34,881 bases of DNA from contig CANJSG010000015.1 in NCBI GenBank assembly GCA_947476875.1, forward strand, positions 1 through 34,881. The letters are read 5' to 3'. This document shows positions 1 to 7,234 of the stretch, piece by piece. The stretch is from Verrucomicrobiota bacterium. GTDB lineage: Bacteria > Verrucomicrobiota > Verrucomicrobiia > Limisphaerales > CANJSG01. Position numbers and translations under genes: made by a program. Position 1 is the first letter of the stretch; the number at the start of each line of letters is the position of its first letter. The notes below the pieces were generated by a model. That model ran no database searches. It saw nothing but the letters and a program-made list of their open reading frames with translations, and was not told where the DNA came from.

Positions 1-669
1 GCTTTCCCAGACCGCGAATTCATCGCCGAACTGGCCCATCTCGGCGCCGAAGCGGATTCAGCCTCCGGAACATTGGAAGCGGCCTTCCACGTCGAGAACC
101 CCGACTACTCGCTGCGCCCGGGAATGCGGGCCGAGTTCAGCATCATCGCGGGCAGCCGCGAGGGAGTGATGTCCGTTCCACGCGCCGCGTTGCAGGGCGA
201 ACCGGCAAATCGCTTTCTCTATGTCGCCGACGACGGCATCGCCAACGCCTTCGTCAAAGTGCCGGTCGAAGTGGGCGCGATGAACGACCAGCATGCGGAG
301 ATCACCAAGGGCCTGCTGCCGGGCGACAAGGTCGTCACGGCCGGAGCCTACTCGCTGGCTTTCGCGGGCAAGGGCAGCGTCTCCTTGAAGGAAGCCCTCG
401 ACGCCGCGCATGGCCACGAACACAACGCCGACGGCAGCGAACTCGGCAAGGGTGCGAAGTCGGCCGGCCACGCGGAAGGGGACGGTCACGATCACGACGG
501 CTCCGGCGGCGGAAGATTTTCCGCCCTGACCCTGTTCTCGCTCATCGGCAACGGTGTGCTCCTCGTGCTGCTGGTGGTCGCCACGCTGCGTCGCAGCCCG
601 GCGACCGGAGAACCGTCCGCAGCCCCGACCGGGAAGCCAACCACGGGAGGATCGAGCCATGCTGAATAA
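1..669 (+). CDS. RND efflux periplasmic adaptor (CusB/HlyD type), C-terminal part
   Basis: The gene runs in from the left edge; 222 codons are visible and it ends at TAA 667-669. The segment with HVENPDYSLRPGMRAEFSI and the following VPRAALQ is typical of the membrane-proximal beta-barrel domain of HlyD/CusB adaptors, which bridge an inner-membrane RND pump and an outer-membrane channel. After it comes a His/Asp/Gly-rich stretch (near 409-510; HGHEHN, HAEGDGHDHDG) and then a hydrophobic helix (about 523-585), followed by a short polar tail. The His-rich linker fits metal binding. A C-terminal membrane helix is unusual, because adaptors are normally anchored at the N terminus. It overlaps the start of the pump gene by 11 bp, so the two are co-transcribed. 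Family confidence is high; the metal is not determined. Confidence 0.85.
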   Translation, partial: AFPDREFIAELAHLGAEADSASGTLEAAFHVENPDYSLRPGMRAEFSIIAGSREGVMSVPRAALQGEPANRFLYVADDGIANAFVKVPVEVGAMNDQHAEITKGLLPGDKVVTAGAYSLAFAGKGSVSLKEALDAAHGHEHNADGSELGKGAKSAGHAEGDGHDHDGSGGGRFSALTLFSLIGNGVLLVLLVVATLRRSPATGEPSAAPTGKPTTGGSSHAE

Positions 670-3600
670 GCTGATCCGCCATGCGTTGAACAACCGGGCC
701 ATCGTGCTCGGGTTGTCGCTGATGGTGCTGTTGCTCGGCGCACAGACGGCGCGGGAACTGCCGGTCGAAGTGCTGCCGGACCTGACCAAACCGACGGTCA
801 TCATCCTCACGGAAGCCCCCGGTCTCGCGCCCGAAGAAGTCGAGGCCAACGTCACCCTGCCCATCGAACGCTCGCTCATGGGCGTCGCCGGCCTCACGAG
901 GCTGCGCTCGAACTCGGATGTCAGCCTGTCGCTCGTCTACGCCGAGTTCGGCTGGGGCACGGACATCTACAAGGCCCGCCAGTTCGTGCAGGAGCGGTTG
1001 CAGGGCGTGCGCGGAACTTTGCCGGCCGGCGTTGAACCGTTCCTCACCCCGGTCGCGTCGCTCATGGGCGAGATCCTGCTCGTCGGCCTGCGCAGCACCA
1101 ACGCGGCGATTCCTCCCCGCGAGGTTCGTTCGCTGGCCGACTGGGTGGTGCGTCCGCGCCTGCAGAGCATTCCCGGCATCGCCGAGATCCTGAACATGGG
1201 AGGCGGCATCAAGCAGGTGCAGGTCCAGCCCGACCCCATGCGGATGCAGGCCCACGGCGTCACCTACGAGGAGCTGGAACTCGCCACCAAGGAATCGGCC
1301 GGGAACTCGACTGGCGGTTTCATCAACTCCGGCTCCACCGAGATCATGGTCCGCAACCTCGCCATGACCGTGCAGCTCGACGACATCGCCCGCACCGTGG
1401 TCAAACGGATCAACGACCGGCCCGTGCGCATCTCCGACGTGGCCAAGGTCGACTGGGGCATCGAGCCGATGAGGGGCGACGGCAGCGTGAACGGCACCCG
1501 CGGCGTCATCATGAGCATCACGAAGTCGCCGGGCTTCGACACGCTCGCGCTGACGACGAAGATCGAGGCCGCGCTCGCCGAACTTCAGCCCGGATTGCCG
1601 AAGGGCGTCGACGCCGTCGTGCTGTTCCGTCAGGCGGATTTCATCGAGCACGCGATTGGGAACCTGAAGGAAGCCATCCGCGACGGGGCCATCATGGTGA
1701 CGGTGGTGATCTTCCTGTTCCTCCTGAACTTCAGGACCACTTTCATCACGCTGATGGCCATGCCGCTGTCGTTCGCCATCACACTGCTCACCTTCAAATG
1801 GTTCGGCATCTCGGTGAACTCGATGACGCTCGGCGGCCTGGCCGTGGCCATCGGCATGGTGGTGGATGACGCCATCGTGGACGTGGAGAACGTCTATCGT
1901 CGGCTGCGTGAAAACGCGGCGAAGGGCCTTAGTGGCAACGGCGCCCTCGCCGGTGAAAGTGGCACAGGCGCCCCCGCCTGTTCTTCCGGTTTGGCAGGAG
2001 AAGCTCCGGGCGGGGGCGCCCGGATAACGGCCACAGGCGAGGGCGCCTGTGCCACTAGGCGCCCCGCGCTCGAAGTCATCGCCCGCGCTTCCGGCGAAGT
2101 GCGGAACTCCATCCTCTACGCGACGCTGCTCATCATCCTCGTCTTCCTGCCGCTGCTGGGATTGAGCGGCGTCGAGGGCCGGCTCTTCTCGCCCATCGCC
2201 ATCGCCACCATCCTCAGCATGGTCGCGTCGTTTGTCGTTTCGCTCACCGTCATCCCGGTGCTGTGCTCGTTTATCCTGCGTCCGAAAGAAGGCAGGGAAC
2301 ATAAGGACGGCGGGCTTGTGCGCGGCATGAAATGGCTGCTTGAACACACGCTGCTTCGCTTCGGCCTGGGCCAGCCCTACCTGCTCCTCGGCCTTGTGGC
2401 ACTGGCGGTTCTCGCCGCGTTCTCGCTCTATCCGCAGATGGGGAAGGATTTCCTGCCGGCATTCCGCGAAGAGACCGCGCTCATCTCCACCACGTCCGCG
2501 CCGGGCACGTCGCTCGAGGAGATGAACAAGATCTCCGACGTGATCGAACAGGAACTGCTGGCCATCCCCGAAGTGCGGAAGGTCGGCCGCCGTCTCGGCC
2601 GCGCCGAACGCGGCGACCATGTGGTGCCCGTGTCGACAGCCGAATTCGACGTCGATTTCCGGGAACCGGACGGCGCCGCCAAAGGGCGGCCGCGCGCGGA
2701 AATACTCGAAGACATCCGAAAGAAAGTCCGCGCCGTGCCCGGCACGTTCAGCGTCGTGATGGGCCCGCTGGCCGACCGCATCGGCCACATGCTGAGCGGC
2801 GTTTCCGCGCCCGTTGCGATCAAGGTCTTCGGACGCGACCTCGAAACACTCCGCGCCATCGGCATCCAGATCCAGACGGTGGCCAAGACCATTCCGGGAT
2901 TCGAGGACTGCAAGCTCGACCAGCAATCGACCATCCCCCAACTCCGCATCGAAGCCGACCGCGACAAAGCCGCCGCCTACGGGATCACGCCGGGCAAGCT
3001 CAACGAAACCCTCTCGACCCTGATCGGTGGCAAGGCCGCGGCCCAGTTGCGCGACGGCCAACGCACCGTCGATCTCGTCATCCGCCTGCCTCAGGAGTGG
3101 CGGGAGTCGCCGGAACGAATCGCCCAACTTCCGATCGAGGTGCATGACGGGGAGGCGACGACCCGATACGTGCCCTTGTCGATGGTCGCCGAGGTCCGCG
3201 AGGCCAAGGGACCGAACGTCATCTTCCGCGAGAACAGCCAACGCCGCTTCGCCCTCGCCATCAAACCGACCGTGCGCGACGTCTCGTCGCTGGTGCCCAA
3301 GCTGCAGCAGGAAGTCGCCGCCAAGGTGAAGTTGCCCGAAGGCTACTTCGTTTCCTTCGAGGGCGAGTTCCTGGCACAACGCGACGCCTCGCAACGGATC
3401 GCGCTTCTCAGCGCGGTGGTCTTGGTCGTCATCGCCTTCCTGCTCTACGGCTATTTCCGCACGCCGTTCTTCGCCTTCCAGGTGCTGTTCGACATCCCGC
3501 TGGCATTGGTCGGAGGACTCGTCCTGACCTGGATCATGCTGAACAACATTTCCATCGCCACGCTGGTCGGCTTCATCGCCGTGGCCGGCGTGGCCGCGCG

Positions 3601-3928
3601 GAACAGCATCATGCTCATCTCCCACTACCTGCACCTCATGCAGCACGAGGGCGAGGGCTTCACCAAGACGATGGTCATCCGAGGCACCAAGGAACGCCTC
3701 GTGCCCGTGCTGATGACCGCCCTCTCGGCCGGCATCGGCTTGATCCCGCTCGTGCTGGCCGCCGATCAGCCGGGCAAGGAGATTCTCCACCCCGTGGCCG
3801 TCGTCATCGTCGGCGGGCTTGTCACTTCCACGTTGCTCGGCCTCGCGGTCACTCCGACCGTGTTTTTCACGTTCGGGAGCAAGGCGGCCGAAAGGGCCAT
3901 CGCGAACGAATCCGGAGCCTCCCACTGA
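659..3928 (+). CDS. CusA/CzcA-family heavy-metal RND efflux pump (permease), with a palindromic insert
   Basis: Inner-membrane proton-driven pump of the HME-RND class, 1089 residues. The start at 659 is fixed by a strong Shine-Dalgarno (GGGAGG, 8 nt upstream) and the canonical N terminus MLNKLIRHALNNRAIV. Visible family features: the PDLTKPTV and APGLAPEEVE porter segment, the proton-relay region GMVVDDAIVDVENVYRRL in TM4, LVFLPLLGLSGVEGRLF after TM5, and GVAARNSIMLISHYL plus ALSAGIGLIPL near the end. CusA-type pumps usually have about 1040-1050 residues. The surplus is explained by roughly residues 424-466, low-complexity Gly/Ala sequence encoded by a palindromic DNA element in the cytoplasmic loop after TM4. 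Everything around the insert reads in frame, so the pump may still work. The substrate is probably a divalent or monovalent metal; the neighbouring RcnA-like gene hints at Ni/Co, but Cu/Ag is possible. Confidence 0.93.
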   Translation: MLNKLIRHALNNRAIVLGLSLMVLLLGAQTARELPVEVLPDLTKPTVIILTEAPGLAPEEVEANVTLPIERSLMGVAGLTRLRSNSDVSLSLVYAEFGWGTDIYKARQFVQERLQGVRGTLPAGVEPFLTPVASLMGEILLVGLRSTNAAIPPREVRSLADWVVRPRLQSIPGIAEILNMGGGIKQVQVQPDPMRMQAHGVTYEELELATKESAGNSTGGFINSGSTEIMVRNLAMTVQLDDIARTVVKRINDRPVRISDVAKVDWGIEPMRGDGSVNGTRGVIMSITKSPGFDTLALTTKIEAALAELQPGLPKGVDAVVLFRQADFIEHAIGNLKEAIRDGAIMVTVVIFLFLLNFRTTFITLMAMPLSFAITLLTFKWFGISVNSMTLGGLAVAIGMVVDDAIVDVENVYRRLRENAAKGLSGNGALAGESGTGAPACSSGLAGEAPGGGARITATGEGACATRRPALEVIARASGEVRNSILYATLLIILVFLPLLGLSGVEGRLFSPIAIATILSMVASFVVSLTVIPVLCSFILRPKEGREHKDGGLVRGMKWLLEHTLLRFGLGQPYLLLGLVALAVLAAFSLYPQMGKDFLPAFREETALISTTSAPGTSLEEMNKISDVIEQELLAIPEVRKVGRRLGRAERGDHVVPVSTAEFDVDFREPDGAAKGRPRAEILEDIRKKVRAVPGTFSVVMGPLADRIGHMLSGVSAPVAIKVFGRDLETLRAIGIQIQTVAKTIPGFEDCKLDQQSTIPQLRIEADRDKAAAYGITPGKLNETLSTLIGGKAAAQLRDGQRTVDLVIRLPQEWRESPERIAQLPIEVHDGEATTRYVPLSMVAEVREAKGPNVIFRENSQRRFALAIKPTVRDVSSLVPKLQQEVAAKVKLPEGYFVSFEGEFLAQRDASQRIALLSAVVLVVIAFLLYGYFRTPFFAFQVLFDIPLALVGGLVLTWIMLNNISIATLVGFIAVAGVAARNSIMLISHYLHLMQHEGEGFTKTMVIRGTKERLVPVLMTALSAGIGLIPLVLAADQPGKEILHPVAVVIVGGLVTSTLLGLAVTPTVFFTFGSKAAERAIANESGASH
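1928..2059. repeat. Nested palindromic element inserted in frame in the RND pump gene
   Basis: The outer arms begin TAGTGGCA at about 1930 and end in TGCCACTA at about 2057; over 26 bp the left arm and the reverse complement of the right arm agree at 23 positions by hand count. An inner perfect 12-bp inverted repeat is GGCGCCCCCGCC (1967-1978) against GGCGGGGGCGCC (2009-2020). A further half-site, AGTGGCACAGGCG, lies at 1959-1971. The element contains no stop in the host frame and is absent from the usual family sequence at this position. It resembles in principle the palindromic elements known to insert into Rickettsia genes, although the sequence is different. Confidence 0.85.
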
Positions 3929-5656: not shown

Positions 5657-7234
5657 ATGCGCCTCGCCTCTATTCTTTTCGCGGCTCTGGCCGTCGTCGG
5701 CGTCACCGCTTCCGCTGCGGACGCCGCCAAAGCCAAGCAGCCGAACATCGTCTTCATCTTCTCGGACGACCACGCCTACCAGGCCATTAGCGCCTACGGC
5801 GATCCGAGGAAGCTGCTCGATACGCCCAACCTCGACCGCATCGCCAAGGAAGGCGTCCGCTTCGACCGTTGCCTCGTGCCGAACTCCATCTGCGGCCCCA
5901 GCCGGGCCACGGTGTTGACCGGGAAATATTCCCATCTGAACGGCTTCCCCAACAACTCGAACAGCCGCTTCGACGGGACGCAGACCACTTTCCCCAAGCT
6001 GCTCCAGAAGGCCGGTTACCAGACCGCCATTTTCGGCAAATGGCATCTGGCGAGCGATCCCACGGGCTTCGACCACTGGCAGATCCTTCCCGGCCAGGGC
6101 GTCTACTACAACCCGCCCATGATCCGCATGGGCGAGACCGTCCAGGAGCCCGGCTACGTGACGGACATCATCACCGAGCGTTCGCTGGCATGGATGAAGA
6201 AGAGGGACAAGACCAAGCCGTTCCTCGCCATGATCCAGCACAAGGCCCCGCATCGTGAATGGTCCCCCGCCCTCCGCCATCTCGGCCACGACAAGGACCG
6301 GGTCTATCCCGAGCCGGCGACGCTCTTCGACGACTACGAAGGCCGCGGATTCGCCGTCAAAGACCAGCACATGACGATCGAGAAAATCATGACGCCGTTC
6401 GACAACAAGCTGACGGCCATGCCCCGCCTCACGCCCGAACAGCGCAAGGTCTGGGACGCCTACTACGTGCCGCGGAACGAGAAGTTCACCAACATGGCGC
6501 TGACCGGAAAGGACCTCGTCCGCTGGAAATACAACCGCTACCTGCACGACTACCTCGGCACGGTGAAGGCCGTCGACGAAAGCGTCGGCGCGGTCCTCAA
6601 GTATCTCGATGAGGAAGGCCTGGCCGACAACACTATCCTCGTCTACGCGTCCGACCAGGGCTTCTACCTCGGCGAGCACGGCTGGTTCGACAAGCGCTGG
6701 ATCTTCGAGGAATCCCTGCGCACGCCGCTGCTCGTCCGTTGGCCGGGCCACACGAAGGCCGGGACCGTCAACAAGGACATTGTCTCCACCGTCGACTTCG
6801 CCCAGACGTTCCTGATCGCGGCCGGGGTCGCCGTCCCCAACGACGTCCAAGGTGGCAATCTCCTTCCCGTCCTCGCCGGCAACACCCCGGCGAACTGGCG
6901 CAAGAGTTTCTACTACCACTACTACGAGTATCCCGAACCCCACCGCGTCCAACCCCACTACGGCGTCGTCACCGACCGCTACAAGCTGGTCCGCTTCTAC
7001 GCCATGGGCCCGGACTATATGGAGCTCTACGACCTGCAGAAGGACCCCAACGAGATGAAGAGCGTCTTCGGCGATCCCTCCTACGCGAAGGTCACCGAGG
7101 ATCTGCAGAAGGAACTCGCCCGTCTCCGCCAGGAACTGAAGGTGCCGGAAGTCGAACCGCCAAGCGTCTTCGGAGGTTCGGCCAATCCGGCGAAGAAGAA
7201 CCAGAAGAAGAAGGACGCGGCGAAAACCAACTGA
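5657..7234 (+). CDS. S1-family sulfatase (N-acetylglucosamine-6-sulfatase-like), secreted
   Basis: A 525-residue type I sulfatase that removes sulfate esters, probably from sulfated glycans, after export. A signal peptide is visible (residues 1-24). The formylglycine site is C79-G-P81-S-R83 (CxPxR) followed by ATVLTGKYSH. The metal ligands include SDDH at 36-39 and DQGF near the middle. The segment GEHGWFDKRWIFEESLRTPL is typical of the GlcNAc-6-O-sulfatase-like subfamily (S1_11 group), so heparan- or mucin-type substrates are plausible. The C terminus ends in a lysine-rich tail. It needs a formylglycine-generating enzyme encoded elsewhere. The substrate assignment is inference; sulfatase identity is secure. 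Confidence 0.93.
   Translation: MRLASILFAALAVVGVTASAADAAKAKQPNIVFIFSDDHAYQAISAYGDPRKLLDTPNLDRIAKEGVRFDRCLVPNSICGPSRATVLTGKYSHLNGFPNNSNSRFDGTQTTFPKLLQKAGYQTAIFGKWHLASDPTGFDHWQILPGQGVYYNPPMIRMGETVQEPGYVTDIITERSLAWMKKRDKTKPFLAMIQHKAPHREWSPALRHLGHDKDRVYPEPATLFDDYEGRGFAVKDQHMTIEKIMTPFDNKLTAMPRLTPEQRKVWDAYYVPRNEKFTNMALTGKDLVRWKYNRYLHDYLGTVKAVDESVGAVLKYLDEEGLADNTILVYASDQGFYLGEHGWFDKRWIFEESLRTPLLVRWPGHTKAGTVNKDIVSTVDFAQTFLIAAGVAVPNDVQGGNLLPVLAGNTPANWRKSFYYHYYEYPEPHRVQPHYGVVTDRYKLVRFYAMGPDYMELYDLQKDPNEMKSVFGDPSYAKVTEDLQKELARLRQELKVPEVEPPSVFGGSANPAKKNQKKKDAAKTN

Follow-up and report, generated by a model that had tools for sequence, protein, structure and literature searches.

The DNA analysed here (the window, 34,881 nucleotides from an uncultured Verrucomicrobia bacterium) raises the question of how a nested palindrome of 128 bp, at positions 1930-2057, comes to lie in frame within cusA. 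The host gene (659-3928, plus strand) encodes a CusA/CzcA-type heavy-metal RND permease, as indicated by TIGR00914 (782 bits), PF00873 and an AlphaFold model; its true start is probably ATG 659 and not GTG 554. As the original prediction had described, the outer arms read from the sequence (1930-1955 and 2032-2057) match at 23 of 26 positions and the inner 12-bp arms (1967-1978 and 2009-2020) match perfectly. An inverted-repeat search paired 1958-1981 with 2033-2056 (96% complementary) and 1930-1978 with 2009-2057 (78% complementary). Comparable hairpin matches were found in none of 100 dinucleotide-shuffled windows, and folding of the strand gave z values against shuffles of -8.3 as DNA and -9.0 as RNA. 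The cusA reading frame is open throughout the insert, without the stop codon or frameshift whose absence had been predicted. A long open frame runs antisense to the whole of cusA, insert included (542-3925, minus strand), and is probably a G+C effect. A sulfatase-like ORF, judged by eye, lies downstream of the metal-efflux genes (5657-7234).

In the AlphaFold model of the pump, a loop at residues 427-464 with pLDDT below 50 is flanked by helices 388-425 and 470-500, which puts the insert between TM4 and TM5, in agreement with the predicted location after TM4. The insert loop is probably disordered according to this model. The closest orthologue found (G006, 88% identical) reads NAA-SPKPHPR-LEV where the window protein reads NAA-(49 residues)-LEV. 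The alignment gives a net surplus of 42 residues, or 126 nt, and the figure of about 43 surplus residues proposed from the sequence was right. The cusA genes of G020 and G013 also lack the insert, the relatives at 88%, 65% and 54% identity are all without the loop, and in E. coli CusA (3k07) TM4 and TM5 are joined by only about 12 residues. The alignment to CusA homologues suggested with the original prediction thus returned no insert in any of these four proteins, and the loop shared among orthologues that it had named as counter-evidence is absent from those compared. Its view that the element has been domesticated is not borne out: the loop is probably disordered and is missing from relatives.

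To define the units of the element, 19 half-elements were aligned. Each consists of R1 (TAGTGGCACAGGCGCCCTCGCCTGTG) followed by R2 (GTnCnGCAGGCGCCCCCGCCTGC), and left and right ends are mirror copies. Both hairpins covary, with 95% of cells paired and 19 cells changed on both sides, compared to 5.2 in shuffled alignments. A GTGG tag is present in R1 of most copies, its GT being invariant. The window composite reads R1-R2-spacer-R2'-R1' over 1930-2057 and accounts for about 42 extra CusA residues; it is delimited by the inverted repeats, the empty sites in G006, G020 and G013 and the copies in its own genome. The left outer unit R1 (TAGTGGCAACGGCGCCCTCGCCGGTG, 1930-1955, plus strand), aligned with the 18 other half-elements, carries the GTGG tag and the hairpin GGCG-CCCT-CGCC; this first helix is 98% paired and shows both-sided changes. 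The left inner unit R2 (AGTGGCACAGGCGCCCCCGCCTGT, 1957-1981, plus strand) forms helix 2 of the covariation test and includes the family 23-mer exactly at 1959-1981. A short spacer (1982-2003) occupies the position where the copy on contig C6 has a complete RAYT gene (comparison with L066, 4332-5067). On the minus strand, the alignment of half-elements identifies a degenerate R2' with a GGGCGCCCCCGCCC hairpin (2004-2031), followed by R1' (2032-2057), which is the exact consensus TAGTGGCACAGGCGCCCTCGCCTGTG with an exact match at 2033-2055.

The insert is therefore a REP doublet with a GTGG tag and belongs to the REP/RAYT class, with two hairpin units per end in mirror order. This genome shows several features of the GTAG superfamily of REPs: a hairpin repeated at about 18 sites, a GTAG-like tag (GTGG) and a RAYT flanked by the repeats (on C6). 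The parallel drawn earlier with Rickettsia palindromic elements was apt, but the element is not a new palindromic family of unknown kind. In-frame REP dimers were described in 2013, most of all in Opitutus terrae, itself one of the Verrucomicrobia, and the tag of the GTAG-20 family is GTGG in most O. terrae copies, an accepted variant (PMC3733652). With in-frame dimers and GTGG repeats already known in Verrucomicrobia, the window insert alone is a further member of a described REP type.

The element was then searched for in the genome, a 4.17-Mb MAG of 317 contigs that is 85% complete, so that further RAYTs or intergenic copies may be missing. The 23-mer unit gave 35 matches (17 forward and 18 reverse) compared to 1 and 0 for the reversed control. 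Read site by site, these fall at about 18 places, mostly as mirror pairs, and reading frames and Pfam matches put 16 of them in frame within genes, mostly housekeeping ones. The tRNA synthetase hosts are valS (two), alaS and ileS (at a contig end). The other hosts are purL, metH, smc, odhB (two single units), the genes for pyruvate carboxylase, a DUF3516 helicase and a sugar ABC ATPase, ccoG, cusA itself and a UDPGP-domain gene on C6 (two sites). Two sites are intergenic, one on C25 and one on C5 upstream of glgA. The original prediction of a multicopy element able to enter coding sequence without breaking it was borne out by these sites, and the lack of any other copy, which it had taken as refutation, does not hold.

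Fourteen insert sites (12 of the element and 2 of RAYT inserts) were compared with G006, and all are uninterrupted there. For the 13 sites besides cusA the joined flanks were used, 11 for the element (the C6 REP pair counted) and 2 for the RAYT inserts in alaS and on C6; at the fkp1 site, where the pairwise alignment did not span the insert, a one-piece tblastn match was used instead. In the alignments, net gains relative to G006 are 24-58 residues for REP inserts and 217 residues for the alaS RAYT insert; the smc insert brings no net length difference. In many of the elements stop codons close one or more of the frames, but never that of the host. For each of the two RAYT inserts, one frame of six is open, and it is that of the host.

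One of the Y1 transposase matches of the genome (C6:21722-21952) lies between R1-R2 and R2'-R1' units of the family of the window element. This RAYT is complete, in frame and free of stop codons within a 1426-residue ORF that also encodes a UDPGP domain. Among PDB structures, its fold model (pLDDT 89) matches 4ER8 best (E 4e-7), the structure of a RAYT in complex with a REP hairpin. The alignment shows the invariant RAYT residues H110 and H112 (HuH) and Y170-N174-P175; the HuH motif, catalytic Tyr and Y1 fold that characterize RAYT (TnpA-REP) proteins are thus present. Domain matches are 58 bits to NF047646, under its 80-bit cut-off, and 24.9 bits to Y1_Tnp, over its cut-off of 23. Like the TnpA-REP of 4ER8, the C6 RAYT has the HuH and Tyr motifs; the former is a stand-alone protein, unlike the C6 RAYT, and the two are 18% identical in the fold alignment. 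Since the same R1-R2 ends enclose the C6 RAYT, the window element is most likely its non-autonomous relative and resembles a C6 element that lacks the gene. The C6 RAYT is likely to be the driver of the window element, direct RAYT-REP recognition being suggested by the shared ends. Relatives of the C6 type (45-52% identical) are found in DinG/YoaA, DnaE, PriA, ClpB, a SNF2 helicase and the same UDPGP-domain gene. RAYTs more distant from the C6 type are mostly stand-alone.

On these data, the insert is very probably a non-autonomous REP of the REP/RAYT type, with the C6 RAYT as its likely driver and with read-through copies surviving. Each end has two hairpin units, R1 with its 5' GTGG tag and then R2. 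The autonomous version has between its ends a RAYT, a HuH single-strand transposase, in place of which the window copy retains only a short spacer. In the scheme proposed, the C6 RAYT would recognise R1 and R2 folded as hairpins on single-stranded DNA and would copy or move the element. The remaining copies would be in frame because insertions that break important genes are lost; the survivors would be those with a length and frame that let ribosomes translate across them, giving a flexible loop. Any copy in a housekeeping gene would also be difficult to shed, because imprecise deletion would kill the cell. The transposase appears to obey the same rule, lying in frame and stop-free in host genes, and is presumably produced as a domain of the host protein. 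We infer transposition, RAYT-REP recognition, activity from inside the host protein and the reason for persistence from these arrangements. In the comparison with relatives, which belong to other families of the order, no event of transposition, no duplicated target site and no insertion polymorphism between strains came to light.

Other origins of the insert were weighed against this scheme. Its strong RNA folding and its accessible cytoplasmic position would suit a functional loop, domesticated either by the pump or by its mRNA, where a strong hairpin would set the pace of translation, and kept for that function. However, the orthologues compared do without it, the same element recurs at some 16 unrelated places in genes, and the loop is of low confidence and probably disordered in the model; such a role is unlikely. 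An ancestral loop lost in other lineages has in its favour the variable length of the TM4-TM5 loop among homologues. It was rejected, and has a negligible probability, as the loop is absent from G006, G020, G013, E. coli CusA and the relatives at 88%, 65% and 54% identity, and its sequence is that of a multicopy repeat in unrelated genes.

The REP element or RAYT insert could also be removed after transcription or translation, by IStron-like group I intron or intein-like splicing, with restoration of the host protein. IStrons do combine IS transposons with group I introns (PMC4227781), and the hosts are essential genes, as for inteins. Yet an Rfam scan of these loci found no intron or other RNA family, no ribozyme matching at the gathering threshold, and domain scans of these proteins reported no inteins. 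Moreover, the frames are open and the net lengths are multiples of three, neither of which splicing would need, and this explanation is very improbable. An assembly or binning artefact, conceivable in a fragmented MAG of 317 contigs, is more improbable still: there are many independent in-frame cases and purifying selection, and the same arrangement is found in a one-contig genome (alaS of G097) and in dozens of separate MAGs. The read-through REP element driven by a RAYT thus remains our preferred reading.

The residence of RAYTs within genes extends well beyond C6. A second RAYT subfamily lies in frame in alaS of this genome on C38. This alaS, the only one found in the genome (L069, G000:C38, 454-4161), has the REP pair and, at a second site, the whole in-frame RAYT, which has its own, different REP ends (GTGGAACGGGCCACCGGCCCGTT). 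A 728-residue open frame on the minus strand of another contig (L083, G000:C269) is a priA that holds a RAYT in frame; the contig breaks off within it, so that its upstream half is not covered. Other genomes of the order have in-frame RAYTs in alaS, some with two, and in thrS. Two such alaS genes with two RAYTs each (L137 and L142) have open frames of 1398 and 1540 residues. A scan of database contigs for one subfamily gave 78 RAYT loci, 73 of them embedded in larger open frames; NCBIfam matches identify the hosts as alaS at two sites, recG, thrS, metH at two sites and carB. One metH open frame (L230, 3-3692) has two separate REP_Tyr_transpos matches. In a phylum sample of 388 genomes, 8 had a match, and all 8 matches lie in frames of 730-1316 residues. 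Among nine genomes searched, alaS is single-copy in all nine and bears a RAYT in seven, including the one-contig genome G097. Two RAYT subfamilies in Verrucomicrobiota thus reside mainly as in-frame domains of conserved genes, in alaS, thrS, recG, metH, carB, priA, dnaE, clpB and dinG. RAYTs are also fused in frame at the C-terminal side of a proline-racemase-like protein (L146) and of an unidentified long ORF (L145).

Residence in coding sequence does not hold for every REP family: in G049, a relative at greater distance, most of the 20 sites checked for similar REPs are intergenic or only in short open frames. Other copies of the second REP family of the present genome, that of the alaS RAYT, likewise appear to be mostly intergenic. 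The idea that related REPs are always intragenic was rejected on both grounds.

In ten close pairs of the alaS/recG-type subfamily, which is distinct from the C6 type, dN/dS of the RAYT ranges from 0.07 to 0.34 (median 0.15), and is mostly higher in the REP-encoded linkers. The HuH motif is kept in 76 and the Tyr in 77 of the 78 loci, as counted by eye, a strict motif script having undercounted the HuH box. This subfamily is under purifying selection. In their tree the RAYTs group by host and site, though imperfectly (18 changes of label compared to 41.8 after shuffling), and some close RAYTs are in different genes (L160 in alaS, L208 in recG). This pattern is consistent with site-wise inheritance and occasional moves. 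Five stand-alone RAYTs (L169, L183, L197, L211 and L212) are nested among the recG-resident ones and are possibly escaped copies.

Among known systems, the closest are the REPs and RAYTs of the GTAG superfamily (REPtrons, BIMEs, REPINs). By its published description, GTAG-20 of O. terrae shares with the present family short GTGG hairpins, mirror dimers, a RAYT flanked on either side by these repeats, and in-frame copies in genes, including repair genes (PMC3733652). Unlike GTAG-20, the present family has double-unit ends, mostly intragenic copies and a RAYT gene in frame inside a host gene, of which we found no report. Rickettsia palindromic elements likewise lie in frame in protein genes, but are linked to CGTC-type repeats and have no dedicated transposase known (PMC3733652), whereas here the tag is GTGG, not CGTC, and a candidate transposase is present. 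RAYT genes in frame inside essential genes, aminoacyl-tRNA synthetases included, may be new: no description was found in the open-access literature, and one may exist elsewhere.

Inteins are selfish elements that persist at conserved sites of essential genes and are mostly inherited per allele. Inteins and IStrons share this selfish persistence with the present elements, which differ in that no splicing apparatus was found and the protein seems to retain the insert. A wider reading, put forward tentatively and with slightly more doubt than belief, is that Verrucomicrobiota harbour a class of mobile elements that live much as inteins do but are not spliced. Their HuH transposases would be permanent in-frame domains of essential proteins, expressed by the host gene and catalytically active inside its product. 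They would seed other genes with REP copies and, from time to time, insert there themselves; among the dispersed copies would be the window insert. A model of REPIN persistence takes genes to be destroyed by copies that land in them (PMC8049555); in contrast, this lineage has most copies, and its transposase genes, in frame inside genes, many of them essential. The persistence of REPs and RAYTs without frequent horizontal transfer, and the tolerance of conserved proteins for large insertions, now become testable. In the main classification of the transposase superfamily, proteins longer than expected were left out, being taken for fusions or annotation errors (PMC6006769). An aminoacyl-tRNA synthetase, RecG, MetH or DnaE annotated in this phylum may include a transposase domain.
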